This document shows positions 18,901-34,489 of a stretch of DNA of 34,489 nucleotides, in pieces; the stretch's first letter is position 1; each line of letters opens with the position of its first letter. Location of the stretch: contig JAEUUX010000055.1 of the NCBI GenBank assembly GCA_016787295.1, positions 1 to 34,489 on the forward strand, given 5' to 3'. Source of the stretch: Chitinophagales bacterium (lineage in GTDB: Bacteria > Bacteroidota > Bacteroidia > Chitinophagales > UBA2359). The translations under genes and the position numbers were made by a program. The notes below the pieces were generated by a model. That model saw only the letters and a list, made by a program, of their open reading frames with translations, did no database searches and was not told the DNA's origin.

Positions 18901-18902
18901 CG

Positions 18903-19910
18903 ATGGCAGACACGCGCAACAAAAACCGCCCTTTATCAAATGAAGAAAAATACTTGCCTTTTCTTTATCCGGTATTGATGCCGCTTTTAACCCTAAATTC
19001 TTTCAAAATACCTGTTTCTTCTGCCCAAGAAGCACTAAGTTATTGGTTGTTTACGGGTTTTATTCAGTTTATATTGGTATGTGTGATTAGAAAAATGGTT
19101 TATACAACGACTTATTATCCAATTGTTAGGTGGTTGATAGCTGCCTTTGTTTGTGTATCAATTATTGTTATTTATGTGTTTTTGGAGTACAACTATCTAC
19201 ATTTTACAAAAGCATTTGCCAACCCAAACCCTTGGATAAATGTTTCGCGATATAGCATCAATATCCCTATTTTAATTGCGTTGGTAGAAAGTATTAAAGC
19301 GTTTCAGGAACGTTCAACATTTAATACCAACAATATTCAATTGCAAAGCGAAAACACAAAAGCACAGTTTAACCTGCTCTTGCAGCAAGTGAACCCCCAT
19401 TTTTTGTTCAATAGCCTAACCACACTACAGGCAATGGTGCGCGCAAAAGACACACACACCGAAGAATTTATTATAAAGCTAAAGGAAGTGTTTCAGCAAA
19501 CCCTAAAAAAAGAAAAAGGAACCGTAACTTTGAAAGAAGAGTTAGAGTTTTTTAATGCTTATATGTACTTGATAACCTTGCGGCAGGGCAGTTCGGTGAT
19601 GTTGGACGTGTCTATTGCTAACCAATCTTTGTCTTACCAAATACCTACTTATACTTTGCAACTGCTCGCCGAAAACTGCATTAAACATAACATTGCTTCC
19701 GAAGCCAATCCTTTAATGATACTTGTATATCAAAAGGATCCCAAAAGCGTTACGGTTGCCAACAATTATCAGCCCAAAAAACGCAAAGTAGAATCGTTTG
19801 GCATTGGTATTAGTAACCTAAAACAACGCTATGCTTTGGCAGGAATAGAGGACGGTGTGCTTATAACACAAGACGAAAATATTTACGAAACAACCGTAAA
19901 ACTAATGTAA
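18903..19910 (+). CDS. LytS-like sensor histidine kinase
   Basis: This 335-residue paralogue of the preceding protein has N-terminal membrane segments and a canonical phosphoacceptor motif, NPHFLFNSL with His166 (CAT at 19398-19400). LQLLAENCIKHN (N box) and GIGISNLKQRYAL (G box) are present. It should autophosphorylate and pass phosphate to Asp55 of the LytTR regulator that starts 1 bp after its stop. ATG at 18903 lies 2 bp after the stop of the first kinase. An alternative TTG at 18897 would overlap it by 4 bp. The three genes form a tight operon ending at the hairpin at 20755-20804. The sensed signal is unknown, and no periplasmic sensor domain is visible. Confidence 0.92.
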   Translation: MADTRNKNRPLSNEEKYLPFLYPVLMPLLTLNSFKIPVSSAQEALSYWLFTGFIQFILVCVIRKMVYTTTYYPIVRWLIAAFVCVSIIVIYVFLEYNYLHFTKAFANPNPWINVSRYSINIPILIALVESIKAFQERSTFNTNNIQLQSENTKAQFNLLLQQVNPHFLFNSLTTLQAMVRAKDTHTEEFIIKLKEVFQQTLKKEKGTVTLKEELEFFNAYMYLITLRQGSSVMLDVSIANQSLSYQIPTYTLQLLAENCIKHNIASEANPLMILVYQKDPKSVTVANNYQPKKRKVESFGIGISNLKQRYALAGIEDGVLITQDENIYETTVKLM

Positions 19911-19911
19911 A

Positions 19912-20673
19912 ATGAAAATACTAATTGTAGAAGACGAGCATAAAACCGCTAAATTGTTAAAGGATTTGATTGAACTGCACAACAATTATAAGGTTGTAGC
20001 TATTTGCGACAGCGTGGAGGCAACAGTGCAGTATTTGCAAATTCATCAGCACGATTTAGATGTTATGTTTATGGATATTCAACTATCCGACGGGCAAAGT
20101 TTTGAGGTGTTTGACAAAATAAATGTCAAAATACCCGTCATTTTTTGTACCTCTTATGACGAGTTTATGCTAAAAGCCTTTCAAAATAATGGCATTGGCT
20201 ATGTGCTAAAACCGTTTAATGAAATAGATATTCACCAAGCTATTCTCAAAGTAGATGAATTGCGGAATAGTTTTGTGAAGCATTCGTTTGAAAATTTAAA
20301 CCTAAAAGAGTTAGTCGTTAAAGAAAAAACCTACCAAACAAGTTTTTTAATCCGTTTCCGCGAAAAGATATATCCTGTTTTGGTGTCCGATATAGCATTT
20401 GTTTGCTTAGAACACGAAACGGTTTATTTGTATAACTTTAAGGGCGAAAAACACCCCATTTTTAAACCACTTGACGAAATTGAAAACGCCATTCCGCCCA
20501 CTCAATTTTATCGCATCAACCGCCAAATGATTGTTAACCGAAAAGCAATTAAGGAAATAGAACCTTATTTTAACCAAAAACTTGTGCTGCAATTAAGCAT
20601 ACAGACACCCGAACAAGTCCTTGTATCGCGCTTAAAAGTAGCACCTTTTTTGAGTTGGCTTGAAAAAAGTTAA
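19912..20673 (+). CDS. LytTR-family response regulator
   Basis: This 253-residue protein has an N-terminal receiver domain with E7/D8, phosphoacceptor D55 in FMDIQLSDG, T80 and K100 in YVLKPF. A linker leads to a C-terminal LytTR DNA-binding domain (about 145-250, with FYRINRQMIVNRKAI). LytTR proteins bind pairs of 9-bp direct repeats about 21 bp apart. Such repeats occur before six genes downstream, the first only 174 bp past this gene. It is the last gene of the kinase operon. I infer that it is the activator of the island genes; the sequence does not prove this. Confidence 0.95.
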   Translation: MKILIVEDEHKTAKLLKDLIELHNNYKVVAICDSVEATVQYLQIHQHDLDVMFMDIQLSDGQSFEVFDKINVKIPVIFCTSYDEFMLKAFQNNGIGYVLKPFNEIDIHQAILKVDELRNSFVKHSFENLNLKELVVKEKTYQTSFLIRFREKIYPVLVSDIAFVCLEHETVYLYNFKGEKHPIFKPLDEIENAIPPTQFYRINRQMIVNRKAIKEIEPYFNQKLVLQLSIQTPEQVLVSRLKVAPFLSWLEKS

Positions 20674-20804: not shown

Positions 20805-20846
20805 TTGTTTTGGGTATTTAGCTCATTGAAGCGTTTTTGCCAAATG

Positions 20847-20938
20847 TATTTCAACTCCCCGTTTAGTCAATTCAACTGCTTGTTTAGCTATTTCAACAAC
20901 ATTTGTCTTTGGTTTTTTGGGTGGTGGCTATACCTTTG
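20847..20938 (+). promoter_or_regulatory. Three 21-bp-spaced LytTR-like boxes and promoter of the formyltransferase gene
   Basis: Boxes TATTTCAACTCC (20847), CAATTCAACTGC (20868) and TATTTCAACAAC (20889) start exactly 21 bp apart. Exactly 30 bp after the last box comes the -7 element TACCTTTG (20931-20938). A -33 TTTG (20908-20911) sits 19 bp before it. The layout equals that of the five other island promoters although the sequence differs. The start codon is about 90 bp downstream. Confidence 0.7.
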
Positions 20939-21027
20939 TAGTGTTCAGATGAAATAACGGCAAATGTTGTTGTTTTTTCAGACACCAACACAAACATTTT
21001 TAACTTCAAAAAATCAACCTGTGCATT

Positions 21028-22056
21028 ATGAACAATTTTAACGTAGCTCAAAGCATAGCCCCCAATTCCGCTCAAACCCAACATATAAAAGGCGGAAATA
21101 GCCAAAAACTAAAAGTTGTAACTTTCAATTATTTACCGTCAGCCTACAAATTTGCAACAGATTGGATTCGTGAAAATGGACACGACCATATATTAGCAGT
21201 TACTTCGCCCGGTATCAAAACACGCGCCACGCCTTCGTACCAAGATGTTTTGGCTATGGTTGATAAAAATGTGAGTGCCATTGCCACTTCCAAAATGAAG
21301 TCGGTGCTTACGCCCATACTGCACCAACTAAAACCCGATATTGTTTTGTGTTTTACCTTCGCACACCGCCTTGATGCCGAATTGTGTCAAATTCCCAAAT
21401 ATGGTGTCGTGAATATTCACCCCTCTGTGTTGCCCGCCTATAGAGGTCCAAACCCTTTGCGCCAGTTTTATGACGGGGCAAATGTATTTGGGGCAACTGC
21501 ACACCGCATTGCCGACGACTACGATACTGGCGATATTTTAAGCGTAGAATCTGCCGAAATGCCCGCGATAATAACACAAAACATTTCGTTAGAATGGGGA
21601 AATTTGATTAAAAAAGCAATTGCCAACGGTATGGAAAGAGCCATTTCGGGCAAACCCGGAATAATCCAAGACCATACACACGCTACCTATGCCTCGCCTT
21701 TTGTGGACGAAGAAAAATGGGTGAATTTGAACGAACCGAGCCGTATGGTTTTGTGCAAAACACTTGGGCTAAACTTAGCCGGCGGATTGGCAAAAACAAC
21801 CATACAAGGACAGGTGTACAAAATTCATTCGGCGCACCATGTTTCAAGCGATACCACCGTGTCGGCAGGCACAGTTATTAAACAAAACAATGGCATATAC
21901 CAAGTTGCCACAGCAGATGGCATTGTTAAATTGGTAACAGAACCGTTTAATCCCAACAAACAATACTCGCATGTTTTGCCTTTTTCTGCACTTTTTGGGC
22001 AGCCCGCCAATGCCGAACAAGTATTGCTTTCTGCGCAGGGCGCAAGCGGAAGATAA
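21028..22056 (+). CDS. Methionyl-tRNA formyltransferase-like protein
   Basis: This 342-residue protein has the formyltransferase fold: an N-terminal catalytic domain with N129-I-H131-PSVLPAYRG and D166 of DYDTGDIL, the Asn/His/Asp triad of 10-formyl-THF-dependent transferases, then a C-terminal domain typical of Fmt (TTIQGQVYKIHSA). Compared with Fmt it starts with a ~28-residue polar extension, and the sequence around the active site is divergent. It could be the initiator-tRNA formylase, but location in a signal-responsive island suggests a specialised transferase acting on another amino group, such as a sugar or an amino acid. I did not see a second fmt in the window to decide this. The promoter carries LytTR-like repeats. 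Confidence 0.8.
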   Translation: MNNFNVAQSIAPNSAQTQHIKGGNSQKLKVVTFNYLPSAYKFATDWIRENGHDHILAVTSPGIKTRATPSYQDVLAMVDKNVSAIATSKMKSVLTPILHQLKPDIVLCFTFAHRLDAELCQIPKYGVVNIHPSVLPAYRGPNPLRQFYDGANVFGATAHRIADDYDTGDILSVESAEMPAIITQNISLEWGNLIKKAIANGMERAISGKPGIIQDHTHATYASPFVDEEKWVNLNEPSRMVLCKTLGLNLAGGLAKTTIQGQVYKIHSAHHVSSDTTVSAGTVIKQNNGIYQVATADGIVKLVTEPFNPNKQYSHVLPFSALFGQPANAEQVLLSAQGASGR

Positions 22057-22153
22057 TTATCGGGTAAGTAATTTTGTCAATACTGTTCTTTATCGCCACA
22101 TAATTAAGGTATTATTTTTCGGGTAAATATCGTGCAATATAATTTCAAAAAGT

Positions 22154-23536
22154 ATGAAAAATACAATAGCCACAACTGCAAAAACATGGGAACGGATAGG
22201 AGTAGAGTTGCATCTTTCCCACCTTTTGAAAAAAGAGTACTTGCTGTCCGCCCTATTTAGTGCGGCTCTAATTGGTCTTATGACCACTCTATTATCTATA
22301 TCCTTTGCTGTTTTGGTGTTTGGCAAAGCTATCCCCGAAGCCCTACCCATCGGTATAGGTATGGCATTGATTAGCAACATCGTATTGCATATAAGTGCCG
22401 CATTTACCAGTTCCGAAGAAGGTATTATTTCGCACGTACAAAGCCTACCGCCGCCTATCCAAGCCGCCATGTTGTCGTCTATAATGGCTATGCTGCCTTT
22501 ATCTATGCCTATTCAAAATCGGATAACAGTGGCGGTAGTTGTGTTGCTGCTTTCGGCAGTTTTTACAGGTATTACCTTGTTTCTGTTCGGTTCGCTGAAA
22601 TTTGGACGGCTGGTTCGCTTTTTACCATTGCCAGTTATTAGCGGATTTTTAGCATCGGTTGGCATTTCACTCGTTATCGGAGGCATTACTACCATGACCA
22701 ATATAGTGCCTACGCTATCTTCTCTGCCCAAATTGTTTGACACCTCTTTGCTACTCAAGTGCTTGCCCGGCGTGACAATAGCCGCAGTATGGTGGAAAGT
22801 TACACGCCAATGGACGCATCAACTTGTATTTCCGGCTGTATTGGCAATAGCTATTGCGTGTTTTTATGCTATTTGTTATGCACAAGGTTTAGACAAAACA
22901 GCTATGATAAAGGACAATTTATTATTGGGTCCGTTTCAAAATGTCAGTTTGTCGCATTTGCCTACCATTTATTATAGCCAAATAAGTACTATTGATTGGT
23001 GGCTTGTCCTGAACGGACAAAGCGAAAATTTGCTGGCAATACCCTTAGTTTGTTTCATCGGCGGCTTGCTTATGCTAAGTGCCATAGAATTATCTACAGG
23101 CAAAGCAGCCAATCCCGATTTTGAGCTGAAAAGCATGGGCATCAGCAATTTTATATCCGGAATAATGGGCGGCGGTTTTGTGGGCTATCCGTCTGCTACT
23201 TTCACGGTTATGCAACATAGTTTAGGAGTTTCTACGCGCCTTCCCGGTATGTTGAGCGCCATTGTGCCTATGATAGTGCTTGTTTGGGGCAGCAGTTTTT
23301 TGGGTTTCATACCCCGTTTTGTTGTGGGTGGATTGCTTATCTATTTTGGTTATCAATTTATTGACCATGCTATTATCAAGCCAATAAAACAAGCCCCAGT
23401 GTCCGACCTTCTTATTATTGCCATTATTGTTCTAAGCAGTTTTTGGTTGGGGTTTATTGCTGCGGTGGGCGTAGGGGTGTTGCTTGCTGCCAGTTCTTTT
23501 CTGTTCAAATATAGTCAAATTGATGTTGTCAAATAG
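22154..23536 (+). CDS. SulP/SLC26-type anion transporter without STAS domain
   Basis: This 460-residue polytopic membrane protein has about 10-12 hydrophobic segments. SLKFGRLVRFLPLPVISGF (about 147-165) and the later conserved SATFTVMQHSLGVSTRLPG region resemble the Sulfate_transp (SulP) domain. Most SulP proteins carry a cytosolic STAS domain after the last segment. This one ends 8-10 residues after it (FKYSQIDVVK), so the STAS domain is missing. The cargo (sulfate, bicarbonate or other anion) cannot be told. It starts 97 bp after the formyltransferase gene, with no good promoter in between, so co-transcription is possible. A bulged hairpin begins at its stop (about 23531-23573). Confidence 0.82.
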   Translation: MKNTIATTAKTWERIGVELHLSHLLKKEYLLSALFSAALIGLMTTLLSISFAVLVFGKAIPEALPIGIGMALISNIVLHISAAFTSSEEGIISHVQSLPPPIQAAMLSSIMAMLPLSMPIQNRITVAVVVLLLSAVFTGITLFLFGSLKFGRLVRFLPLPVISGFLASVGISLVIGGITTMTNIVPTLSSLPKLFDTSLLLKCLPGVTIAAVWWKVTRQWTHQLVFPAVLAIAIACFYAICYAQGLDKTAMIKDNLLLGPFQNVSLSHLPTIYYSQISTIDWWLVLNGQSENLLAIPLVCFIGGLLMLSAIELSTGKAANPDFELKSMGISNFISGIMGGGFVGYPSATFTVMQHSLGVSTRLPGMLSAIVPMIVLVWGSSFLGFIPRFVVGGLLIYFGYQFIDHAIIKPIKQAPVSDLLIIAIIVLSSFWLGFIAAVGVGVLLAASSFLFKYSQIDVVK

Positions 23537-23726
23537 GTTGCAACAGCCTTAGCATGGTGCAAGATACCTATTTTAGAAAAAAACAAATTTAGGCTCTAAT
23601 CAATACAGCAATTGTCTGCTTCGTGTTTTTTTGTTTGAAAAATATACCCTTAAAATAGTAAACACATTTACCATTTCTCCTCAAAAAATAAAAACATTCA
23701 ATAATCTCCTTTAACAATTTTTTATC

Positions 23727-24449
23727 ATGACAAATTATCCCAAAATCAGCACCACCACCATCAACATGTTATTACTTTTGGCACTAATAAACTTGGCTTA
23801 TGCTTGTGCTAATGAAAAAAACAATACGCCAAATACTAACGAAACCGCTCAAAATGTGGCTAATACCGAAAAAACAGCCGAAACAATCGTTATCAACGGA
23901 ACGGTCAAAGAAATTGCATTTGGCAAAGACGGCTACACCGCACAGGTAGCCACCGAAGAACAAGGCACCTACGACGCTTTGGTATCTATTGTAAATGTGG
24001 GCGGACGCGAAAATTACCAACAATGCAACGTGGGCGATAAGGTGAGTTTCAAGGGCATTCCCTCCAATTTGGGGGACGCTAAACTACTGACCGTCAAAGA
24101 AATATTAAGTATTACTGCCGCCAACAATGCCCAAAACCAAGACCAAGATATAGCCGCAAAATACAGCAAAATTAGCCCAAAAGACTATTGCTGGCAAACC
24201 AACAAAGTAATAGTATTGCACACCGAAGCCCGCGCAGATAGCAAAGTAGAAGGCAAACATTTTGCAGGCGAATTATTACAGGTATTGGGTACAAAAGTGC
24301 TTGAAAATCAATTATGGGTAAATGTTACCTACAGTTTAAAGGTAAAAGCAGGCTATGAAAGCCAATTTGCCGATGGACAAGTCATGTCAAGCGGTTCGCC
24401 AACGGGCTGGATTGGCGGTGACGAAATACCCGAAATAGCTTGCAAATAA
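23727..24449 (+). CDS. Lipoprotein with SH3b-like C-terminal region
   Basis: This 240-residue protein has an N-terminal hydrophobic segment ending in LAYAC with the likely lipidated Cys27, then a Asn/Thr/Glu-rich tether. Residues ~53-130 form a small beta domain (IVINGTVKEIAFGKDGYTAQV... GDKVSFKGIP) that looks OB-like. Residues ~150-235 contain KVIVLHTEARADSKVEGKHFAGELLQVLG, typical of bacterial SH3-like domains. It is probably membrane-anchored and envelope-exposed. The function is unknown. The 190-bp gap upstream has no clear TAnnTTTG element and no 21-bp repeats. The stretch between this gene and the next holds the six-box operator. Confidence 0.7.
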   Translation: MTNYPKISTTTINMLLLLALINLAYACANEKNNTPNTNETAQNVANTEKTAETIVINGTVKEIAFGKDGYTAQVATEEQGTYDALVSIVNVGGRENYQQCNVGDKVSFKGIPSNLGDAKLLTVKEILSITAANNAQNQDQDIAAKYSKISPKDYCWQTNKVIVLHTEARADSKVEGKHFAGELLQVLGTKVLENQLWVNVTYSLKVKAGYESQFADGQVMSSGSPTGWIGGDEIPEIACK

Positions 24450-24528
24450 GCAATAAATAGTCATGCAAAAACCATTGCACGAACCTTACTGACGTTTGAA
24501 AGGTGGGCAAGGTTTGTACCTACCCAAT

Positions 24529-24683
24529 CAATTCAACCCAACTTCAAATCACTTCACCAACCGATTTAGTCAATTCAACTCAACCTTAAATCAATTTAGC
24601 CCTCAATTTAGTCAATTCAACCCTCAATTTAGTCTGTTCGGCTACTTTTTGTTTTTTCTGCCTTATTTATTGGCGTACTTTTA
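24529..24683 (+). promoter_or_regulatory. Six 21-bp-spaced LytTR-like boxes and promoter of the barrel gene
   Basis: Boxes start at 24529, 24550, 24571, 24592, 24613 and 24634, all exactly 21 bp apart (CAATTCAACCCA, CACTTCACCAAC, CAATTCAACTCA, CAATTTAGCCCT, CAATTCAACCCT, CTGTTCGGCTAC). Exactly 30 bp after the last box lies TACTTTTA (24676-24683), a -7 element with A in place of the final G. The ATG of the barrel gene is 41 bp downstream. The spacers often contain TTTAGT. This is the longest operator in the window. Confidence 0.7.
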
Positions 24684-24724
24684 CCTCGTTATCAGTAACA
24701 AAAACAAAAAACCAGCTAAATATC

Positions 24725-25762
24725 ATGAACAGATTTAAATGCTTTTTGAGTGCCATCATAACATTGGCTATCTCCCTACAAGTAACCGCCCAAGAGGTGG
24801 CAAATGATAGTACCGCACAGCAACAACTGCCTGTTCAAGCGTTTACAGCCATGCCTGTTTTGCTAGGTTTTAGTGCCGAAAACGCATTTCCGCACGAAAA
24901 AAATTATCTAAGCACCAATGAAGAGGACTTAAATTTGCCTATGAAAAATAGCCAAGTCTATAGCCTTTATGGTGCTTTACCAATTGTTAAACGAACCAAA
25001 GGTTTTGGGGCTAAAATCAATTTTGGTTACAACTTGTTCAAAGACAATATCGGGACAACTACCTTGAACGATAGCATTATGCCGCATAACATGCCTACTC
25101 TTGGGTCAAGCACTATCATATCTTTGCACGTTTCGCAACAAATTTTGTTCAAAAAAGCAAATAAAAAACTGACCCTTGCCGCTTCGTACAATATTTCGGG
25201 ACGCGATATTGCCCATTTTGAACCAGCAACCCAACGCGGGATATTTACGGCTACCTATCCTTTGCGAATGACCAAAAACAATATGCTGTTGTTGGGTGCA
25301 GTGGGCATGGTCGGAAAAGACATCAAACTGCCTGTACTTCCCATTGTGATTTATTTTACACGCTTAAACAAACATTTAAATATAGAGTTGCTTTTTCCTG
25401 TTTTTGGGCAATTGCGCTATGTCGTTTCTCCGCGCAGTTCGCTTGTTTTGGGGGCAAAAATTGGCAATCGCTCGCCATTTTTGGGATTAGAAACACCCAT
25501 TTTGCAAAGCCCCGACGATGCCTTAGTTATCAATAGCCAACACTTGCGCTATTTTATGAACATAGAAAAAGCCTTGAACAACTATTTGTGGTTGCACGGC
25601 GAAATGGGGTATAGCCAAAGCCTTAAAGAAAACCTAAACACATCGTACCTACATTTGCCAAACCAATCGTTTGCAGGGCAACACAATGGCTATATGTATG
25701 CCAAAGTTGGGGTATTTATCCGACCTGTTTTTGGTACAATAAAAGCCCAACAAAAAAAATAG
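24725..25762 (+). CDS. Putative outer-membrane beta-barrel protein
   Basis: This 345-residue protein has a signal peptide (RFKCFLSAIITLAISLQVTAQ, in pieces; cleavage after about residue 22). The mature part alternates amphipathic strands with turns rich in Asn and Gly (KTKGFGAKINFGYNLF-type strands, RSSLVLGAKIGNRSPF, YMYAKVGVFIRPVFG at the end), typical of Bacteroidota outer-membrane barrels. It may belong to the DUF6268 group, but I am not certain. The start ATG at 24725 fits the promoter at 24676-24683. The next gene, a stand-alone LytTR protein, follows after 97 bp with no evident terminator or promoter, so the two may be co-transcribed. Confidence 0.75.
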   Translation: MNRFKCFLSAIITLAISLQVTAQEVANDSTAQQQLPVQAFTAMPVLLGFSAENAFPHEKNYLSTNEEDLNLPMKNSQVYSLYGALPIVKRTKGFGAKINFGYNLFKDNIGTTTLNDSIMPHNMPTLGSSTIISLHVSQQILFKKANKKLTLAASYNISGRDIAHFEPATQRGIFTATYPLRMTKNNMLLLGAVGMVGKDIKLPVLPIVIYFTRLNKHLNIELLFPVFGQLRYVVSPRSSLVLGAKIGNRSPFLGLETPILQSPDDALVINSQHLRYFMNIEKALNNYLWLHGEMGYSQSLKENLNTSYLHLPNQSFAGQHNGYMYAKVGVFIRPVFGTIKAQQKK

Positions 25763-25859
25763 CTCGCCACAAACGTTCCATAAACTACCCTTTCAAATAG
25801 CACCCATTTCGCACCAATTCGCAGTTATTTTCCAATAACCCTAAAAAATTTCTCTCAAA

Positions 25860-26237
25860 ATGAAAAACAACACTATTGACCAAGCAACACATAAACCCAA
25901 AATCAGTTTCTCTATTCGCTTAGATGGTAAAATATATTTTGTCTTGATAGAAAACATTGCCTTTATCTATTTAGACAACGAAACCGTTTATTTGTTGGAT
26001 TTTAATGGCGACAAGCATAATATTAACAAAACAATAAGCTACCTTGAAAACCTCCTTCCCACACAACAATTTTACCGCATAAACCGCCAAATGATAGTCA
26101 ATAGACAGGCAATAAAAGAGGTAGAACCCTATGCCAACCAACGCATATCACTACAAATAAGCATACCTACCTCCGAACAAATCATCGTGCCGCGCTTAAA
26201 AGTAACCCATTTTTTACATTGGGTTGAAAATGGCTAA
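25860..26237 (+). CDS. Stand-alone LytTR DNA-binding protein
   Basis: This 125-residue protein is made almost only of a LytTR domain. It aligns without gaps to the C-terminal domain of the regulator at 19912-20673; by eye about 60% of ~109 positions are identical, including the block FYRINRQMIVNR. There is no receiver domain, so it cannot be controlled by phosphorylation from the two kinases. It may bind the same 21-bp repeats as competitor or constitutive activator, or form mixed dimers; this is inference. It is probably expressed from the six-box promoter through the barrel gene. The ATG at 25860 follows an A-rich stretch. Confidence 0.9.
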   Translation: MKNNTIDQATHKPKISFSIRLDGKIYFVLIENIAFIYLDNETVYLLDFNGDKHNINKTISYLENLLPTQQFYRINRQMIVNRQAIKEVEPYANQRISLQISIPTSEQIIVPRLKVTHFLHWVENG

Positions 26238-26247
26238 TGCCCCAAAT

Positions 26248-26340
26248 CATTTCAGCCCTCCAATATAAGCAATTCAGGTGCTTATTTGGTCAGTTCAGCT
26301 ACATTTCACTTTTATATCGCCATAAGCAACACTATTTTTG
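26248..26340 (+). promoter_or_regulatory. LytTR-like boxes and promoter of the PIG-L deacetylase gene
   Basis: Boxes CATTTCAGCCCT (26248), CAATTCAGGTGC (26270) and CAGTTCAGCTAC (26291) are spaced 22 and 21 bp. TCAGTTCAG inside the last fits the LytTR half-site consensus [TA][AC][CA]GTTN[AG][TG]. After exactly 30 bp comes the -7 element TATTTTTG (26333-26340). The leader to the ATG at 26536 is about 190 nt, A/T-rich, with no gene recognised in it. Confidence 0.7.
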
Positions 26341-26535
26341 CACTATGAGTTGGGTGTTTGTAGTATTGGTGAGCCTTTAAAACGGATAAACGCCCAACTT
26401 TACTTCATTCCTCAAATTAAGCATAATCTGTTTTTTGCAAGATTCCTGATTTTTTGCTACCTTATTTTGTATCAGAAAAGAAAGACACTATTTTGTACTA
26501 AATATTCTATCAATAACTAAAAAAAAACAATTACC

Positions 26536-27423
26536 ATGGCAAATTTTCAAATTTTGTGCTTCCTATTTTTCTTGCTAAATTTCTTTAGCTTGTCTGCTCA
26601 AACAAGTGTTTTTGTATCTGCACACCCCGACGATTGGCAGCTATTTATGAACCCCGATGCTTACCTTAGTGTTAAAAGCGGCGAAAAGGTTATCTTTATA
26701 CACACTACCTCCGGAGATGGTGGTAATGAAGGTAGTGCCTATTATACCGCAAGAGAACAAGGAAGTTTAAGAGCTATTAGGTTCTTAAGAAATGTTTCTA
26801 CTCCCGGAGCTGAGGGTTTGGGAATGGATATGCAACAAAAGGAAACAACTATTTCGGGAAACCCCAAAGAGGCAGAACACTATCTACAGAGATATACTTA
26901 TGATAACATCGTAGTTTATTTCGTAAGGCTACCCGATGGCGGCTATAGCGGCGAAGGCACCCCAGTAGGAAAAGGTAACAGCATACAAAAGCTATATAAT
27001 GGCACTATTTCCTCTATATTGTCAGTAGATCAAAGAAATAAATACTACAGTTCTGCTGATTTAAAGGAAACACTTAAATCAATAGTAAAAAAAGAATCTA
27101 CAGGCTACATAACATTTCATATAGCAGACACTGATGAAGCCACCAACCCCGGAGACCATTCAGACCACATCTATTCCGCTAAGTATATGGAAGATGTTGC
27201 TAAAGAACTCGGAAATAATAAAATTATTTATCATCAAGGCTATTGTACTGCAAGTAAACCAGCGAATGTTACAGATAAGAATACTTTATGGATAAACATC
27301 GCCACTTGGGGTGTAACATGTTCTGCATTAGCAGATTACAAATCAATAGCTGGAACTACATGGCAAGATGACCATAATGTTTATGTAGATAAACAATACA
27401 CCAGAACAGTAACTAATAAATAA
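26536..27423 (+). CDS. Secreted PIG-L/LmbE-family deacetylase
   Basis: This 295-residue protein has a signal peptide (FQILCFLFFLLNFFSLSAQ; cleavage near residue 22). The zinc-site motif AHPDD lies right at the start of the mature part (H30-P-D32-D33-W), with Trp in place of the usual Glu, a variant found in some family members. The second half of the zinc site is H208-S-D-H211 in PGDHSDHIY. PIG-L enzymes remove acetyl groups from N-acetylglucosamine-type substrates. The exported location suggests action on envelope or extracellular glycans; the substrate is not known. It has its own operator-promoter and is followed by another operator copy and a terminator hairpin (27501-27533). Confidence 0.88.
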   Translation: MANFQILCFLFFLLNFFSLSAQTSVFVSAHPDDWQLFMNPDAYLSVKSGEKVIFIHTTSGDGGNEGSAYYTAREQGSLRAIRFLRNVSTPGAEGLGMDMQQKETTISGNPKEAEHYLQRYTYDNIVVYFVRLPDGGYSGEGTPVGKGNSIQKLYNGTISSILSVDQRNKYYSSADLKETLKSIVKKESTGYITFHIADTDEATNPGDHSDHIYSAKYMEDVAKELGNNKIIYHQGYCTASKPANVTDKNTLWINIATWGVTCSALADYKSIAGTTWQDDHNVYVDKQYTRTVTNK

Positions 27424-27448
27424 AAAGCAATTCCTCTCCCCATTTAAG

Positions 27449-27533
27449 CAATTCAGGTGCTTATTTGGTCAGTTCGCTTATATACTTCTTGCACCACAAG
27501 CCCAAATGATGCTATTTTGCACTATCATTTGGG
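27449..27533 (+). terminator. Decayed operator copy followed by terminator hairpin
   Basis: Two boxes, CAATTCAGGTGC (27449) and CAGTTCGCTTAT (27470), lie 21 bp apart. The hairpin CCCAAATGAT (27501-27510) / ATCATTTGGG (27524-27533) follows, with the 13-nt loop GCTATTTTGCACT and a T-rich tail (TTGTTTTG). The loop resembles the promoter core GCTATTTTTGCACT of neighbouring cassettes with one T lost, so this looks like a promoter copy remade into a terminator of the PIG-L gene. Confidence 0.6.
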
Positions 27534-27573
27534 ATTGTTTTGTTTGGGCGATAAAACGGCTAAAAGCCCAAAT

Positions 27574-27665
27574 CATTTCAGCCCTCAATATAAGCAATTC
27601 AGGTGCCTGTTTGTTCAGTTCGGTTGTATTCCGCTTTTTCACCGCCTTAGTTAAGGCTATCTTTG
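27574..27665 (+). promoter_or_regulatory. LytTR-like boxes and promoter of the DUF1254 gene
   Basis: Boxes CATTTCAGCCCT (27574), CAATTCAGGTGC (27595) and CAGTTCGGTTGT (27616) start 21 bp apart. Exactly 30 bp after the last comes TATCTTTG (27658-27665). The ATG at 27785 is about 120 bp downstream. Confidence 0.7.
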
Positions 27666-27784
27666 CACTGTCGTAGGATATACTTTTGCAATATCGTTTA
27701 CGAAAAAAACAGGCAATTTCTAAAAAACATCTCCCTTAATTTAACAAACGAGGATAAAAACCTCTACAAACAAAGTTTTTAATC

Positions 27785-29182
27785 ATGGTATCTTCACATC
27801 CAATTTCCGTTCTTAATCCCGTAGTGGATCTTACAAGAGAAGCCTTTATCTATGGCTTACCTTTGGTGTTAGTTGATTTAACCAAAGAAGTTTCTTTAAA
27901 ATCAAAAAACCCGGTAAATCAATTCTTAAATAGAACTACGTTTTGTACGGCCGGCGATACCGACGTAGTTAGACCCAATTTTGACACTTATTATTCCAGT
28001 GCTTTTTTTGATTTAAGTTGTGGTCCTTTGGTCTTAGGTATGCCGGCAACGGGCGAGCAATATTATGTAATGCCGCTGTTAGATGCGTTCACCAATGTAA
28101 TTGAGGGTTCTCCGGGCAAAAGAACGCAGCAAACACAAGGTGGAAACTATTTATTGGTTGGTGCAAAAGGTCTTCCTGATGGCTTTGACACAACCGGATA
28201 TACCGACGTTATCCAGTGTGGAACAGATATAGTATGGGCTATAGGCCGCTTTCAAGTAGATAATACCGATACTAACGACTACAATGTAAATGGTGCAGGT
28301 TCGGTTATTAGTTTGCAAAGCCAACTAAGCATTAGGAAGCCTAATGGAAATAGTGCTGCTTATGGCGGAAACCATGCGGAGGCTACCATTACCCCCAATG
28401 AAACCGTTATAAATATGCCGATAAAAGAATTTTTTGCACGCCTAAATTTGCTTTTGCTCACTAATCCACCTGCGCCGGAGGATAGCAAAGCAATGGAAAA
28501 ATTTAAGAAAATTGGTGTTGGCCCGGGCTTGATACCTTTTGAAAATCAAGGCTTTGATGCAATAACATGGGAAGCAATCGCCGAAACGCCTGCTTGGTGT
28601 ATTAACAACCTGCTAACCAAAAAAACAGCTTCAAAAGATACCAATTGGATAACTAATTTGAACCCTAAAATGGGAGCTTATGGCACCGACTACTTGCTCA
28701 GAGCCAGGATTGGTTACAATGGGCTGGGCGCGAATTTAATTCAAGATGCTGTCTATTATAGTGCAGAAATAGACGCAGACGGAGATGACCTTGATGGTAG
28801 CAAATACGATTACAGAATTACATTCAATAATGGAACACCCCCTAACGGTGCTTTTTGGTCATTAACAATGTACAATCAAGATGGCTTTTTTATAGAAAAT
28901 ACCATCGGACGCTATGCCGTAGGACATGATGCTACTGCACCGCTCCAAAATGTTGGTGACAATGTGGTAATATTTATCCAAGACAAATGTGCAATACCCA
29001 ATACAGACCCCTTGTATGCTAATTGGCTTCCTTCTGCTCCGGGTAGTAGTACTACAGTTCCTGCCCCTTCGGGTATTTTCAATGTTATGATTAGGGTATA
29101 TTACCCCGACCAATGCGTTTGGGATAAAGATTATATGCCACTTTGGACACCACCTGTAATTGAAAAAGTGATTAGACTGTAA
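27785..29182 (+). CDS. DUF1254/DUF1214 domain protein
   Basis: This 465-residue protein has an N-terminal DUF1254 region (LTREAFIYGLPLVLVDLTKE, then VRPNFDTYYSSAFFDLS) and a C-terminal DUF1214 region (NGAFWSLTMYNQDGFF, then NTIGRYAVG). These two domains occur together in many bacteria and in some fungi; the activity is not established. Relatives are usually exported, but here the ATG at 27785 gives no signal peptide, and no upstream in-frame extension with one was seen. It may therefore be cytosolic. Flanks are an operator-promoter before and a long imperfect stem (29189-29239) after. Some codons (GGGC, CCGG contexts) look richer in G+C than in neighbours, so acquisition by transfer is possible. 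Confidence 0.88.
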   Translation: MVSSHPISVLNPVVDLTREAFIYGLPLVLVDLTKEVSLKSKNPVNQFLNRTTFCTAGDTDVVRPNFDTYYSSAFFDLSCGPLVLGMPATGEQYYVMPLLDAFTNVIEGSPGKRTQQTQGGNYLLVGAKGLPDGFDTTGYTDVIQCGTDIVWAIGRFQVDNTDTNDYNVNGAGSVISLQSQLSIRKPNGNSAAYGGNHAEATITPNETVINMPIKEFFARLNLLLLTNPPAPEDSKAMEKFKKIGVGPGLIPFENQGFDAITWEAIAETPAWCINNLLTKKTASKDTNWITNLNPKMGAYGTDYLLRARIGYNGLGANLIQDAVYYSAEIDADGDDLDGSKYDYRITFNNGTPPNGAFWSLTMYNQDGFFIENTIGRYAVGHDATAPLQNVGDNVVIFIQDKCAIPNTDPLYANWLPSAPGSSTTVPAPSGIFNVMIRVYYPDQCVWDKDYMPLWTPPVIEKVIRL

Positions 29183-29188
29183 GCAAGC

Positions 29189-29239
29189 GAATAGGTAAGC
29201 GTTGACAAAGTTCAAAACCTTGCCAATGTTTACCTATTC
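29189..29239 (+). terminator. Long hairpin after the DUF1254 gene
   Basis: GAATAGGTAAGCGTTG (29189-29204) pairs with CAATGTTTACCTATTC (29224-29239) over 16 bp including two G-U pairs, with a 19-nt loop. It starts 7 bases after the stop. No T-run follows, so the terminator role is tentative. Confidence 0.5.
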
Positions 29240-29334
29240 AAATGTTGTAACGACTTAGCTAAACGATATTTTTTGAGATATTGTGGACGTTGCCCTGCTT
29301 ATATACCGGTTCACCCATTTTCTGTTTATGCCAC

Positions 29335-29373
29335 AATCCCAAATGATGCTATTTTGCACTATCATTTGGGATT
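29335..29373 (+). terminator. Repeated terminator hairpin, second copy
   Basis: AATCCCAAATGAT (29335-29347) pairs with ATCATTTGGGATT (29361-29373) around the conserved loop GCTATTTTGCACT, followed by a T-rich tail. Compared with the copy at 32182 the outer pairs change together (AAT/ATT to AAG/CTT), so the stem is preserved. Confidence 0.65.
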
Positions 29374-29418
29374 GTTTTATTTTTGGAGAAGGTTAATAAA
29401 ACACTTAAACCCTAAAAT

Positions 29419-29510
29419 CATTTCAGCCCTCAATATAAGCAATTCAGGTGCCTGTTTAGTCAGTTCGCCTACATTCTGCTTTTTTACTGCCTTAATCAAG
29501 GCTATTTTTG
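29419..29510 (+). promoter_or_regulatory. LytTR-like boxes and promoter of the beta-helix gene
   Basis: Boxes CATTTCAGCCCT (29419), CAATTCAGGTGC (29440) and CAGTTCGCCTAC (29461) start 21 bp apart, with exactly 30 bp to TATTTTTG (29503-29510). From about 29473 to the ATG at 29616 the sequence equals that before the last gene of the window except for two bases. Confidence 0.7.
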
Positions 29511-29615
29511 CACTATCGTTTGAGTTTGATGTATGGCTAATATCGTTTTCGCACAACTTGAACAAAACACTAAAACAATAACCAGCTTTAATAATTAACA
29601 AAATATACCAACAAA

Positions 29616-31157
29616 ATGAAAAATTCATACCAATTTTTTATCCAACAAACAGCAAAAACTGTATTTGCTTTAGCAGTTCTCCTTGTTTTAGGTATTTCTG
29701 TAGCCTATAGCCAAACCACGCGTTATGTCACACCCGTAGGAGCGGGCACTATGGACGGCTCTTCATGGACAAATTCAAGTAGCGATTTTCCGGCAATCAT
29801 TAATGCTTCTGCTTCGGGTGATGCTGTATGGGTTGCCGCAGGAATCTATAAACCCACCAAAGACCCCTTGAACAACGCCAGCCCCACCAACCCGCGCGAC
29901 AGAACCTTTTATGTCAAAGATGGCGTACAAATCTATGGCGGATTTGCAGGCAACGAAACACTACTCACGCAACGCAACATTGCCGCTAATATCACCACCC
30001 TAAGCGGCGATTTTAATGACGACGATGTAGTAACAGGAACAGGAGCTACCCTTTCTTTTACTAATAATACCGAAAATGCCTATCATGTAGTGGCTGCCTT
30101 AGCACCCCAAATAGGTGGTATAGGCGTAACCATTGATGGATTTACCATAATAGGCGGAAATGCCAATAATTTTACCGCAATTACTGTCAATGGAAGTTAT
30201 ATGCCAAGAGGCTATGGCGGAGGTATCCTTACTTTATATGGCACCAATACAATAAGAAATAATACCTTAATAGCCAACTTGTCGAATGCAGGAGGCGGTA
30301 TGGCTTTGTTAGCAAGTACCAGTATTTGCACCAATAACACCATTATAAACAACGCAGGCAGCGGCATACACACCCAAGATGGACTACATACCTTTACCAA
30401 CAATACCGTTGCAGGCAATACAAAAAGTGGAATGAGTATAACCTATTGCACCAGTATCATTACTAATAATACCATATACAACAACGTGGCTGCCAGCAGT
30501 GGGGCCAAACCTGCTAACCCAAATAATAAGCAATCTAACAATGCTCAATTTAGCACAGGAACTACAGCTGGTGGTGGCATTTTTTTGTTTTATAGCAACA
30601 ATACTATTACTAATAATGTATTGTACAATAACTCGGCTGATCTGGGCGGAGCTATTTATGCCAATGATGGACCTAATACCATTATCAATAATACCTTTTA
30701 TGCTAACTCGGCAACCAACGGCGGCGGCATTTTTACCCAAGTTGGCACCAACACATTGAGCAATAACATTTTTTGGGGCAACCTGAAAGGAAGTAGCACT
30801 ACCATTGCAGGAGCCGATATAGCCAATAGTGCCACCGCTCCGGCTACCAACAACATTACCTACTGCCTTACCCAACAAAATAGTATTTACAGCACAGGTA
30901 CAGGCATTATTAATAACCAAAACCCATTATTTGTTAATGCCGCAGGTATAGACGGAGCCGACAATACACATCGTACTGCCGACGACGGTTTGCGCCTAAG
31001 CTGTGGAAGCCCCGCCTATAATGTAGGCACTGCCATAGGCGCACCTACCACAGACATTGTTAACACGACCAGACCGCAGTTTGGCACAATAGATATGGGT
31101 GCTTACGAAAAAGTAGATAATTGCTGTGGAGCAAAAGTAGGTACTTGGATAAATTAG
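29616..31157 (+). CDS. Secreted right-handed beta-helix protein
   Basis: This 513-residue protein has a signal peptide (residues 1 to about 32, ending VAYSQ). Residues ~33-200 match the start of many Bacteroidota beta-helix proteins (VWVAAGIYKPT, then DGVQIYGGFAGNETLLTQRN). About ten Asn-rich coils follow (NTIRNNTLIANLS, NNTIYNN, NNVLYNNSADLGGAIYA, NTLSNNIFWGN), typical of parallel beta-helices. The end (SPAYNVGTA... TDIVNTTRPQFGTIDMGAYE) matches the choice-of-anchor Q pattern. The protein then stops after CCGAKVGTWIN without a recognisable type IX sorting domain or barrel, so it may be shortened. The first 14 residues (MKNSYQFFIQQTAK) equal those of the gene at 32456. A 21-bp tandem array begins 14 bases after the stop. 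Confidence 0.88.
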   Translation: MKNSYQFFIQQTAKTVFALAVLLVLGISVAYSQTTRYVTPVGAGTMDGSSWTNSSSDFPAIINASASGDAVWVAAGIYKPTKDPLNNASPTNPRDRTFYVKDGVQIYGGFAGNETLLTQRNIAANITTLSGDFNDDDVVTGTGATLSFTNNTENAYHVVAALAPQIGGIGVTIDGFTIIGGNANNFTAITVNGSYMPRGYGGGILTLYGTNTIRNNTLIANLSNAGGGMALLASTSICTNNTIINNAGSGIHTQDGLHTFTNNTVAGNTKSGMSITYCTSIITNNTIYNNVAASSGAKPANPNNKQSNNAQFSTGTTAGGGIFLFYSNNTITNNVLYNNSADLGGAIYANDGPNTIINNTFYANSATNGGGIFTQVGTNTLSNNIFWGNLKGSSTTIAGADIANSATAPATNNITYCLTQQNSIYSTGTGIINNQNPLFVNAAGIDGADNTHRTADDGLRLSCGSPAYNVGTAIGAPTTDIVNTTRPQFGTIDMGAYEKVDNCCGAKVGTWIN

Positions 31158-31170
31158 ATAATTGGGATTT

Positions 31171-31920
31171 GAAGCTAAACGTCTCGGTGTTTGCCCTAAA
31201 CGTCTCGGTGTTTAGGCTAAACGTTTAGGTGTTAGGGCTAAACGTTTAGGTGTTTGCCCTAAACGTTTAGGTGTCAGGGCTAAACGTTTAGGTGTTGGAG
31301 CTAAACGTTTCGGTGTTTAGGCTAAACGTTTAGGTATTTGGAATATGGAAACCCTAAACGTTTAGGTGTTAGGGCTAAACGTTTCGGTGTCAGGGCTAAA
31401 CGTTTAGGTGTTGGAGCTAAACGTTTCGGTGTTTAGGCTAAACGTTTAGGTGTTTAGGCTAAACGTTTAGGTGTTTAGGCTAAACGTTTAGGTGTTAGGG
31501 CTAAACGTTTAGGTGTTAGGGCTAAATGTTTAGGTGTTAGGGCTAAATGTTTAGGTGTCAAGGCTAAACGTCTCGGTGTTTGGGCTAAACGTTTAGGTGT
31601 CAGGGCTAAACGTTTAGGTGTTTAGGCTAAACGTCTCGGTGTCAGGGCTAAACGTTTAGGTGTCAGGGCTAAACGTTTAGGTGTTTTGGCTAAACGTTTA
31701 GGTATTAGGGCTAAACGTTTAGGTGTCAGGGTTAAACGTTTCGGTGTTATGGCTAAACGTTTAGGTGTTAGGGTTAAACGTTTAGGTGTCAGGGCTAAAT
31801 GTTTAGGTGTTAGGGCTAAACGTTTAGGTGTTAGGGCTAAACGTTTAGGTGTTGGAGCTAAACGTTTAGGTGTCAGGGCTAAATGTTTAGGTGTTTAGGC
31901 TAAACGTCTCGGTTTTTAGG
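31171..31920. repeat. 21-bp palindromic tandem array, about 35 copies
   Basis: The unit GCTAAACGTTTAGGTGTTAGG repeats over about 750 bp. Its core CTAAACGTTTAG is a perfect 12-bp palindrome. Variants include CTAAACGTCTCGG and CTAAATGTTTAGG. One spacing of 32 bp near 31322-31354 breaks the register. Read on the plus strand it gives AKRLGVR-like peptides, but units with GTTTAGGC put TAG stops in that frame and no promoter or start is evident. It is taken as non-coding. Confidence 0.88.
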
Positions 31921-31942
31921 GGTTTATTTTGGGCAAATAAAA

Positions 31943-31982
31943 AATGGCGATGATGCAACCCAAAGTCTGCACCATCGCCATT
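31943..31982 (-). terminator. Terminator of the truncated minus-strand gene
   Basis: AATGGCGATG (31943-31952) pairs with CATCGCCATT (31973-31982). The stem can be prolonged inward through a G-U pair and TGCA. On the minus strand a TTTTTTATTTG tail follows. It stands 23 bases past the stop of the remnant at 32006. Confidence 0.72.
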
Positions 31983-32005
31983 AGAAAATAAATACTGTTT
32001 AAAGA

Positions 32006-32131
32006 TTATTCCGTTGTATCGACATCGTTTTGGGTAGTACGCAGGAAGAACTGTTTGAGGTCGCGCATTTTTTCGGTTGCACCAATTTTGTTCACTTTTG
32101 CCAAATACTGCACATAGCTATAACAGATTGA
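32006..32131 (-). pseudogene. 3' remnant of an unidentified gene
   Basis: A minus-strand frame without start encodes 41 residues ending LAKVNKIGATEKMRDLKQFF, LRTTQNDVDTTE and TAA (32006-32008). It is polar and helix-forming like a real protein C-terminus, and a proper terminator follows, unlike chance frames. The 5' part is gone. The frame runs into a stop at 32132-32134, near an inverted repeat (32100-32149) and the copied terminator-operator cassette (from 32182). I do not recognise the family. The reading is that the gene was cut when the island cassette was inserted or duplicated. Confidence 0.55.
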
Positions 32132-32149
32132 TTATGCGCAGTATTTGGC
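32100..32149. repeat. 12-bp inverted repeat at the remnant boundary
   Basis: GCCAAATACTGC (32100-32111) is repeated inverted as GCAGTATTTGGC (32138-32149), 26 bp apart. The first arm is within the remnant's coding sequence, and the second lies just outside it. It may mark a rearrangement joint or act as a hairpin. Confidence 0.6.
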
Positions 32150-32181
32150 AAAATCTGTTTACCTGTCACATCATATAATTA

Positions 32182-32222
32182 CAAGCCCAAATGATGCTAT
32201 TTTGCACTATCATTTGGGCTTG
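32182..32222 (+). terminator. Repeated terminator hairpin, third copy
   Basis: CAAGCCCAAATGAT (32182-32195) pairs perfectly over 14 bp with ATCATTTGGGCTTG (32209-32222), with the conserved loop GCTATTTTGCACT and a T-rich tail (TTTTGTTTGGG). Confidence 0.68.
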
Positions 32223-32258
32223 TTTTGTTTGGGCAATAATACACCTAAACCCCAAAAT

Positions 32259-32350
32259 CATTTCAACCCTCAATATAAGCAATTCAGGTGCTTATTTGGT
32301 CAGTTCAGCTACATTCCGCTTTTTTACTGCCTTAATCAAGGCTATTTTTG
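32259..32350 (+). promoter_or_regulatory. LytTR-like boxes and promoter of the propeller/BspA gene
   Basis: Boxes CATTTCAACCCT (32259), CAATTCAGGTGC (32280) and CAGTTCAGCTAC (32301) start 21 bp apart. Exactly 30 bp later comes TATTTTTG (32343-32350). TCAGTTCAG fits the LytTR half-site consensus. The ATG is about 105 bp downstream. Confidence 0.72.
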
Positions 32351-32455: not shown

Positions 32456-34489
32456 ATGAAAAATTCATACCAATTTTTTATCCAACAAACGGCAAAAATA
32501 CCTTATGCTGTGGCAAGCATCGCCGCCTTTTGTCTTATCCTATCGGCGGCTATCTTTTTCCCAAACGCCTCGGCGTATGCACAATGTACGCCAGCAATTA
32601 TTCCTACGACTTCTACCGCTAACGCCAGTGCACAAATAAGTGGCAATACGGTCGTTTGGGCTGGTGTGGCTGGCAGCGTTCAGCATATCTTTAAATACGA
32701 TGGAACGACCACTACGCAACTCTCTACGACTTCTATCCAAAACACCAATCCAAAAATAAGCGGCAATACGGTCGTTTGGGCTGGTGTGGCTGGCAGCGTT
32801 CAGCATATCTTTAAATACGATGGAACGACCCTCACGCAACTCTCTACGACTTCTACTGATAACAACTTTCCACAAATAAGCGGCAATACGGTGGTGTGGC
32901 TTGGTACGCTTGGCGGCGTTAGCCATATCTTTAAACACGATGGAACAACCCTCACACAACTCTCTACGACTTCTACCATTAACAACAGCCCACAAATAAG
33001 CGGCAATACGGTCGTTTGGGATGGTTATGATGGCACAAGTTACCAAATCTATAAACACGACGGAACGACCCTCACGCAAGTCTCTACAACTACTACCTTT
33101 AACGATGTACCACAAATAGACGGCAATACGGTGGTGTGGTCTGGTCATGATGGCACAAGTTACCAAATCTATAAACACGACGGAACGACCACCACGCAAC
33201 TATCTACGACTTCTATCGGTAACTTCAGACCACAAATAGACGGTAATACGGTGGTGTGGCAAGGTCTTATTGGCGACGTTTCGCATATTTTTAAACACGA
33301 TGGCACAAGTGTTTCGCAACTCTCTACGAATTCTACTGCTAACAGCGTCCCACAAATAAGCGGTAATACGGTAGTTTGGCAAGGTACGCTTGGCGGCGTT
33401 CAGCATATTTTTAAACACGATGGAACGGCTGTTACGCAAGTCTCCTCTACGACTTCTACCAATAACAGAACCCCACAAATAGAGGGCAATATTATCGTGT
33501 GGGACGGCGATGAGGCGGGAGTAAAAAATATTTATCTTGCCCAGCTTTGCCCTTTCATCACCACTTGGAAAACCGACAATGCAGGTACTTCCAACAGCAC
33601 TTCCATTACCATACCCACCACAGGTAGTGGCTACAACTATGACGTGGATTGGAACAACGATGGTACGTTTGATGACTTTGGCGTAACGGGCAATATCACG
33701 CACAACTACGGTACAGCAGGAACTTATACAGTGGCTATCAGAGGGGCTTTTCCACGCATATTTTTTAGTAATGGCGGCGATAAACTCAAATTATTATCTA
33801 TTGAGCAATGGGGAGATATTGTTTGGACAACTATGCAATCTGCGTTTAATGGTTGTGCCAATATGGTGCTGAACGCCACCGATGTTCCCAACACGGCGGC
33901 TGTAACAGCCATGAACTCTATGTTTAGAGATTGTAGTTCCTTTAACCAAGCCTTGCCCAATGGTTTTAATACGGATAACGTAACGAATATGTCTAGTATG
34001 TTTTCGGGTTGCTCTGCCTATAACCAAGCCCTGCCAAGTAGTTTTAATACGGCTAATGTAACGAATATATCTAGTATGTTTTCGGGTTGCTCTGCCTATA
34101 ACCAAGTGCTACCGAATAATTTTAATACGGCTAATGTAACGAATATGTATGCTATGTTTCAGGGCTGTACACTCTATAATCAAGCCCTTCCGAGCAATTT
34201 TAACACAGCAAACGTGACAGATATGGCGTTTATGTTTAGATTTTGTAGCAATTTCAATCAAGTCCTGCCCAATAATTTTAATACCGCCAATGTAACGGAT
34301 ATGGGGAAAATGTTTTCGGGTTGTACGCTCTATAACCAAGCCCTGCCGAGTAGTTTTAATACGAGCAATGTGACCAATATGGCAGGTATGTTTGAAAGTT
34401 GTAGTGCCTACAATCAAGCCCTGCCAAGTTCTTTTAATACGAGTAATGTGACCAATATGGCAGGTATGTTTGCCAATTGTATGGCATTT
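32456..34489 (+). CDS. Secreted beta-propeller plus BspA/DUF285 surface protein (partial, runs off window)
   Basis: The frame is open from ATG 32456 to the window end (678 codons, no stop). The signal peptide spans about residues 1-43 (ending ASAYAQC). Its first 14 residues equal those of the beta-helix protein. Next come eight repeats of 40 residues with the core PQISGNTVVWxGxxG and HIFKHDGTTLTQLSTTS, which should fold as a beta-propeller. The first two are nearly identical in DNA. Residues ~365-425 form a PKD-like bridge with DWNNDGTFDDFG and a GNITHNYGTAGTYTVAI strand pair. From about residue 470 on there are 26-residue BspA/DUF285 repeats (FNTANVTNMSSMFSGCSAYN), at least seven before the edge. 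BspA repeats are found in surface adhesins. A C-terminal anchor or sorting signal would lie outside the window. Large minus-strand frames here are only shadows. Confidence 0.9.
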   Translation, partial: MKNSYQFFIQQTAKIPYAVASIAAFCLILSAAIFFPNASAYAQCTPAIIPTTSTANASAQISGNTVVWAGVAGSVQHIFKYDGTTTTQLSTTSIQNTNPKISGNTVVWAGVAGSVQHIFKYDGTTLTQLSTTSTDNNFPQISGNTVVWLGTLGGVSHIFKHDGTTLTQLSTTSTINNSPQISGNTVVWDGYDGTSYQIYKHDGTTLTQVSTTTTFNDVPQIDGNTVVWSGHDGTSYQIYKHDGTTTTQLSTTSIGNFRPQIDGNTVVWQGLIGDVSHIFKHDGTSVSQLSTNSTANSVPQISGNTVVWQGTLGGVQHIFKHDGTAVTQVSSTTSTNNRTPQIEGNIIVWDGDEAGVKNIYLAQLCPFITTWKTDNAGTSNSTSITIPTTGSGYNYDVDWNNDGTFDDFGVTGNITHNYGTAGTYTVAIRGAFPRIFFSNGGDKLKLLSIEQWGDIVWTTMQSAFNGCANMVLNATDVPNTAAVTAMNSMFRDCSSFNQALPNGFNTDNVTNMSSMFSGCSAYNQALPSSFNTANVTNISSMFSGCSAYNQVLPNNFNTANVTNMYAMFQGCTLYNQALPSNFNTANVTDMAFMFRFCSNFNQVLPNNFNTANVTDMGKMFSGCTLYNQALPSSFNTSNVTNMAGMFESCSAYNQALPSSFNTSNVTNMAGMFANCMAF

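Follow-up and report, generated by a model that had tools for sequence, protein, structure and literature searches.

Our findings point to six promoters (P1-P6) that are very probably activator-dependent and belong to one LytTR two-component regulon confined to a single island in the genome of a Chitinophagales bacterium (GCA_016787295.1; 5.42 Mb in 296 contigs). The window, i.e., the whole stretch of DNA analysed, is the complete contig JAEUUX010000055.1 (C55 in our numbering; 34,489 bp), and the island spans it from two PF06580 histidine kinases (17869) through a DUF285 BspA-like gene broken at the contig end (34489). A regulator with receiver and LytTR domains occurs here together with PF06580-type kinase genes, the combination that characterizes LytTR two-component systems. 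The design belongs to a known kind and has some uncommon traits: three to six operator boxes, copied promoter cassettes with varied cargo, and a LytTR-only paralogue of the regulator. The genes, promoters and hairpins of the island are as follows:

17869-18900, forward strand: histidine kinase 1, PF06580 type (Pfam E 1.7e-18)
18897-19910, forward strand: histidine kinase 2, PF06580 type (Pfam E 6.9e-20)
19912-20673, forward strand: response regulator with receiver and LytTR domains (Pfam PF00072, PF04397), the likely activator
20846-20938, forward strand: P1; 9-mer boxes at 20846, 20867 and 20888; -7 element TACCTTTG at 20931-20938; gap of 34 bp
21028-22056, forward strand: formyltransferase-like gene, predicted to be driven by P1 (Pfam PF00551, PF02911)
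24528-24683, forward strand: P2; six in-register boxes at 24528, 24549, 24570, 24591, 24612 and 24633; -7 element TACTTTTA at 24676-24683
24725-25762, forward strand: gene predicted to be driven by P2, without a Pfam match ("barrel" is a label of the first-pass annotation)
25860-26237, forward strand: LytTR-only protein (Pfam PF04397, E 1.4e-16)
26247-26340, forward strand: P3; boxes at 26247 (1 bp off register), 26269 and 26290; -7 element TATTTTTG at 26333-26340
26536-27423, forward strand: PIG-L family gene downstream of P3 (Pfam PF02585)
27448-27519, forward strand: P3b, a degenerate seventh site; boxes at 27448 and 27469; -7-like TATTTTGC at 27512, 39 bp from TTC
27496-27538, forward strand: terminator-like hairpin before P4 (-17.7 kcal/mol)
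27573-27665, forward strand: P4; boxes at 27573, 27594 and 27615; -7 element TATCTTTG at 27658-27665
27785-29182, forward strand: DUF1254/DUF1214 gene downstream of P4 (Pfam)
29338-29370, forward strand: terminator-like hairpin before P5 (-15.2 kcal/mol)
29418-29510, forward strand: P5; boxes at 29418, 29439 and 29460; -7 element TATTTTTG at 29503-29510
29616-31157, forward strand: beta-helix protein gene downstream of P5 (Pfam PF13229)
32181-32224, forward strand: terminator-like hairpin before P6 (-24.8 kcal/mol)
32258-32350, forward strand: P6; boxes at 32258, 32279 and 32300; -7 element TATTTTTG at 32343-32350
32456-34489, forward strand: BspA-like (DUF285) gene downstream of P6, truncated by the contig end (Pfam PF03382, E 2.4e-67)

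The geometry of these promoters is rigid. The TTC of the last box (20892, 24637, 26294, 27619, 29464 and 32304 in P1-P6) and the TA of the -7 element (20931, 24676, 26333, 27658, 29503 and 32343) are separated by 39 bp in all six, which leaves 34 bp between the end of the last 9-mer and TA; the first-pass annotation, counting from a 12-bp box, had given this same spacing as 30 bp. Its account of TTCA-type boxes in a 21-bp register and its quoted -7 sequences likewise hold for every promoter, although its two boxes per promoter become three in P1 and P3-P6 and six in P2 (24528 to 24641). The -7 elements stand without a clear -33 TTG. The LytTR consensus [TA][AC][CA]GTTN[AG][TG], met in full by a random 9-mer of the window with a frequency of 0.0011, is matched at nine of nine positions by TCAGTTCAG at 26290 and 32300, as had been proposed, and also by TCAGTTCGG at 27615. 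Among the last boxes the fit is 9/9 in P3, P4 and P6, 8/9 in P2 and P5 and only 5/9 in P1, the last of these being a point against the LytTR reading, and most upstream boxes score 7-8/9; published LytTR repeats often deviate from the consensus (PMC6193735). In published LytTR promoters the 9-bp repeats are mostly 12 bp apart and end 10 bp before the -35 element (PMC6193735), which places them about 33 bp from the -10 element, to be compared with 34 bp in all six promoters here. In a LytTR operon of B. thetaiotaomicron the distance from the last repeat to TATCTTTG is also 34 bp (PMC6193735). SilA uses 10-bp repeats 11 bp apart, an equal period (PMC2766830), and AgrA repeats are centred near -60 (PMC4227749); taking TA at about -12, the proximal box pair of the island would be centred near -61.

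In its own genome this layout is restricted to the island rather than recurring at random sites. The pattern TTCAN17TTCRN35TANNTTTR, derived from the sites themselves so that its counts speak to specificity and not to a p-value, has seven matches in the 5.42-Mb genome, of which six are the promoters and one (C23:701) lies antisense to a gene, while its reversed control has none in the same 5.42 Mb. A genome-wide search with a sequence profile of the six sites returned only these sites, a partial P3b (27424-27493) and the extra boxes of P2, the next-best matches being at noise level and the top one of them inside a coding gene. Copies of the cassette DNA, sought across the genome, likewise occur in the island only. 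Given the caution just stated on the origin of the pattern, and that on copied sites which follows, the six-site layout is not a product of chance.

P3-P6, at 65-93% identity, derive from a single cassette by duplication; they are not independent, and the window offers about three independent observations (the cassette, P1 and P2) rather than six. This raises the question of whether recent duplication alone, in which a promoter cassette multiplied along with the surrounding DNA and answers to no common regulator, accounts for the likeness, a reading favored by the identity of P3-P6 and by the coding start that P5 and P6 even have in common. We consider it very improbable, as P1 and P2 (the 20847 and 24529 regions) are, as had been noted from the start, clearly diverged elsewhere and yet keep box period and spacing exactly, and as other bacterial families retain the same period and spacing beside related regulators. 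The beta-helix (29616) and BspA-like (32456) genes have a common promoter and coding start (MKNSYQFFIQQTAK) and differ in the remainder, and the P5/P6 segment of 281 bp is 93% identical. The hairpins before P4-P6, which are copies of one element (folding z -4.7 to -6.4), would stop transcription from the preceding gene, so the cassettes look insulated. The hairpin loop holds TATTTTGCACTAT, which closely resembles P5 and P6 around their -7 element and start; the loop at 27512 occupies the exact expected -7 position of P3b, as if a promoter had been converted into a terminator.

The contig also carries other repeats. A tandem array at 31174-31907 comprises about 34 copies of a 21-bp unit, GCTAAACGTTTAGGTGTTAGG, within which AACGTTTAG agrees with the LytTR consensus at every position. 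We rejected it as a field of some 34 LytTR sites, because members of this repeat family are present on eight or more other contigs, none of them with a LytTR gene, and because variants break the motif; it is probably a general repeat. At the contig end (1-159 and 163-1764) there are 7.6 tandem copies of a further 21-bp unit, CAAGTACACACAGCCATTCGA, together with several arrays of the heptamer ATTAACA.

The box letters of the island do not transfer unchanged to relatives, whose genomes hold zero to two exact matches of the strict pattern and one-mismatch counts about equal to the reversed control, which is chance level, and the geometry was examined instead. Beside the genes of response regulators that share 45-53% identity with that at 19912, TCAnTTCA-type pairs recur with a period of 21 bp, and their TTC lies 38-39 bp from the -7 element. 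One such locus (L228) has three promoters of this kind, with -7 elements CATCTTTG, CATCTTTG and CATCTTTA at 38, 38 and 39 bp from TTC; the first precedes a gene for a probable secreted protein, the second one for a TonB-dependent receptor and the third the kinase-regulator operon of the locus itself. In that genome TTCACTTCA-type pairs occur at this locus only, and the L228 box, TCACTTCAC, is also present in P2 (24549). A second locus (L230) has TAAATTTG at 38 bp from TTC, and in two more (L080, L226) the -7 candidates, at 39 bp, are weaker matches that tie with other positions. More distant LytTR loci keep this geometry with other box letters (approximately TGYCCGYTTCA); downstream of the boxes lie TonB-dependent receptor genes (L157, L163, L181), kinase-regulator operons (L243, L247) or genes of other kinds, and a specificity code relating regulator to box letters seems readable. 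TGYCCGYTTCA- or TTCA-type pairs also lie before genes neighbouring LytTR regulators of other Bacteroidota at L254:1689-3300 and L295:1237-3388. Across 128 related LytTR loci with 381 intergenic TAnnTTTG elements, 21 bp is the sole favored repeat period upstream: of the near-identical 11-mers that end 32-36 bp ahead of this element, nine have this period, and the 18 other periods together account for six. Random loci gave one weak period-21 match in 83 promoters, a control too small to carry the contrast by itself, and the preference for a single period is the stronger argument. The closest relative of the 19912 regulator (63% identity; L075) keeps the gene order kinase-kinase-regulator; no boxes were recognisable there, on a contig that stops 364 bp past the regulator, and none lie before the kinase operon of the island itself, two absences that weigh against the regulon reading.

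These comparisons bear on whether the boxes are instead bound by another direct-repeat-binding regulator, or the promoters read by a different sigma factor, rather than served by the island's own LytTR proteins. The genome does encode five further LytTR proteins, and direct repeats are bound by other families too, but LytTR sites have this 12-bp gap, this promoter distance and, with a varying degree of fit, these box letters. In this genome the boxes keep to the neighbourhood of the one regulator pair, in relatives they accompany members of its subfamily, and the -7 element has the usual Bacteroidota form. We judge this alternative very unlikely. The first-pass annotation had proposed that the LytTR regulators at 19912 and 25860 control the six genes as one regulon, and the confinement of the layout, the boxes of relatives and the published geometry all argue for it, the part assigned to 25860 being suggested only by shared recognition residues.

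Seven LytTR proteins are encoded in the genome, two of them in the island. The LytTR-only protein at 25860 is a paralogue of the DNA-binding domain of the 19912 regulator, with 55-59% identity to that regulator; it has no receiver and keeps the recognition segment. Common to both are FYRINRQMIVN, an additional KE[IV]EPY segment and RLKV, whereas the usual HRS core is found in the remaining five, which share neither FYRINRQ nor RLKV. The FhRhHRS motif reads FYRINRQ in the island proteins, with F, R and the second R kept, H replaced by N and S by Q; AgrA itself has FFRCHNS in its place. In the tree, 25860 groups with the 19912 regulator and the L075 regulator with support of 97/92, and is sister to its own regulator at only 80/62. 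Among 31 genomes no LytTR-only relative was found, the matches being longer frames of 186-350 aa, nearly all of regulator length, and the protein appears specific to the source genome; a search of solved structures gave no significant match (best E 0.13). From the common recognition residues, 25860 probably shares the sites of the regulator, and its position 97 bp downstream of the P2-driven gene makes feedback likely. Instead of acting as a co-activator, 25860 may antagonise the regulator by sitting on the boxes and so damp the regulon, a possibility we take seriously without preferring it. A protein that lacks a receiver and keeps its recognition segment, probably made from P2, could give negative feedback, but the receiver-less LytTR regulators HdrR and BrsR of S. 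mutans are activators (PMC6193735).

Three groups of known systems invite comparison. Like the AgrA/ComE/SilA/AlgR type, the island combines PF06580-type kinases and a receiver-LytTR regulator (PMC4227749, PMC2766830, PMC6193735) with direct repeats of 9-10 bp that recur every 21 bp ahead of the core promoter, the pair being centred near -60; it differs in its three to six boxes where theirs number two, in a -7 element of the Bacteroidota form with no clear -33, and in having six targets in one island and a LytTR-only paralogue. The LRS-like LytTR operons of Bacteroides (B. thetaiotaomicron, B. ovatus; PMC6193735) also have repeats that end 34 bp before TATCTTTG, but these are 11-bp repeats with a 22-bp period, in contrast to TTCA boxes at 21 bp, and their products are a membrane-spanning LytTR protein and an NfeD/DUF2154 partner instead of a two-component system. 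The LytTR Regulatory Systems of S. mutans (HdrRM, BrsRM) resemble the island in a receiver-less LytTR protein, 9-bp repeats 12 bp apart and likely feedback on the own operon. Unlike them, 25860 adjoins a full two-component system with common recognition residues, and no adjacent membrane inhibitor was recognised for it, the gene directly before it (24725-25762) being the one that lacks a Pfam match; we therefore do not class 25860 as part of such a system. No LytTR two-component regulon of Bacteroidota was found in the open-access literature searched.

In the LytTR regulon that we favor, a signal would act through the two kinases to phosphorylate the response regulator at 19912. The phosphorylated regulator would bind head-to-tail at the two promoter-proximal boxes, with the pair centred near -60, and recruit RNA polymerase at a -7 element that lacks a clear -33 TTG. 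A step of 21 bp corresponds to two helical turns, so that additional boxes in this register would face the same side of the DNA as the proximal pair and may contribute cooperative binding. The P2 operon, with its six boxes, is probably the source of the LytTR-only protein, which likely recognises the same operators and would contribute feedback of either sign. The cassette, comprising the operators and the -7 element, with a hairpin in front of P4-P6, would have been copied within the island before different genes. More speculatively, the regulon could be modular, a portable promoter cassette being pasted before unrelated surface-protein and enzyme genes, with 25860 (from P2) and the full regulator sharing the boxes as oligomers along three to six in-phase boxes, and with a response that scales with box number; we put this forward as an idea that is rather unlikely.

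Our findings highlight a geometric rule, 9-mers at 21 bp that end about 33-36 bp before TAnnTTTG beside the regulator, which recurs in related genomes. This rule may serve as a simple means of target prediction for LytTR two-component regulators in Bacteroidota, TonB-dependent receptors included, and the island would provide a natural test of how extra in-phase boxes and a receiver-less paralogue affect a LytTR switch.
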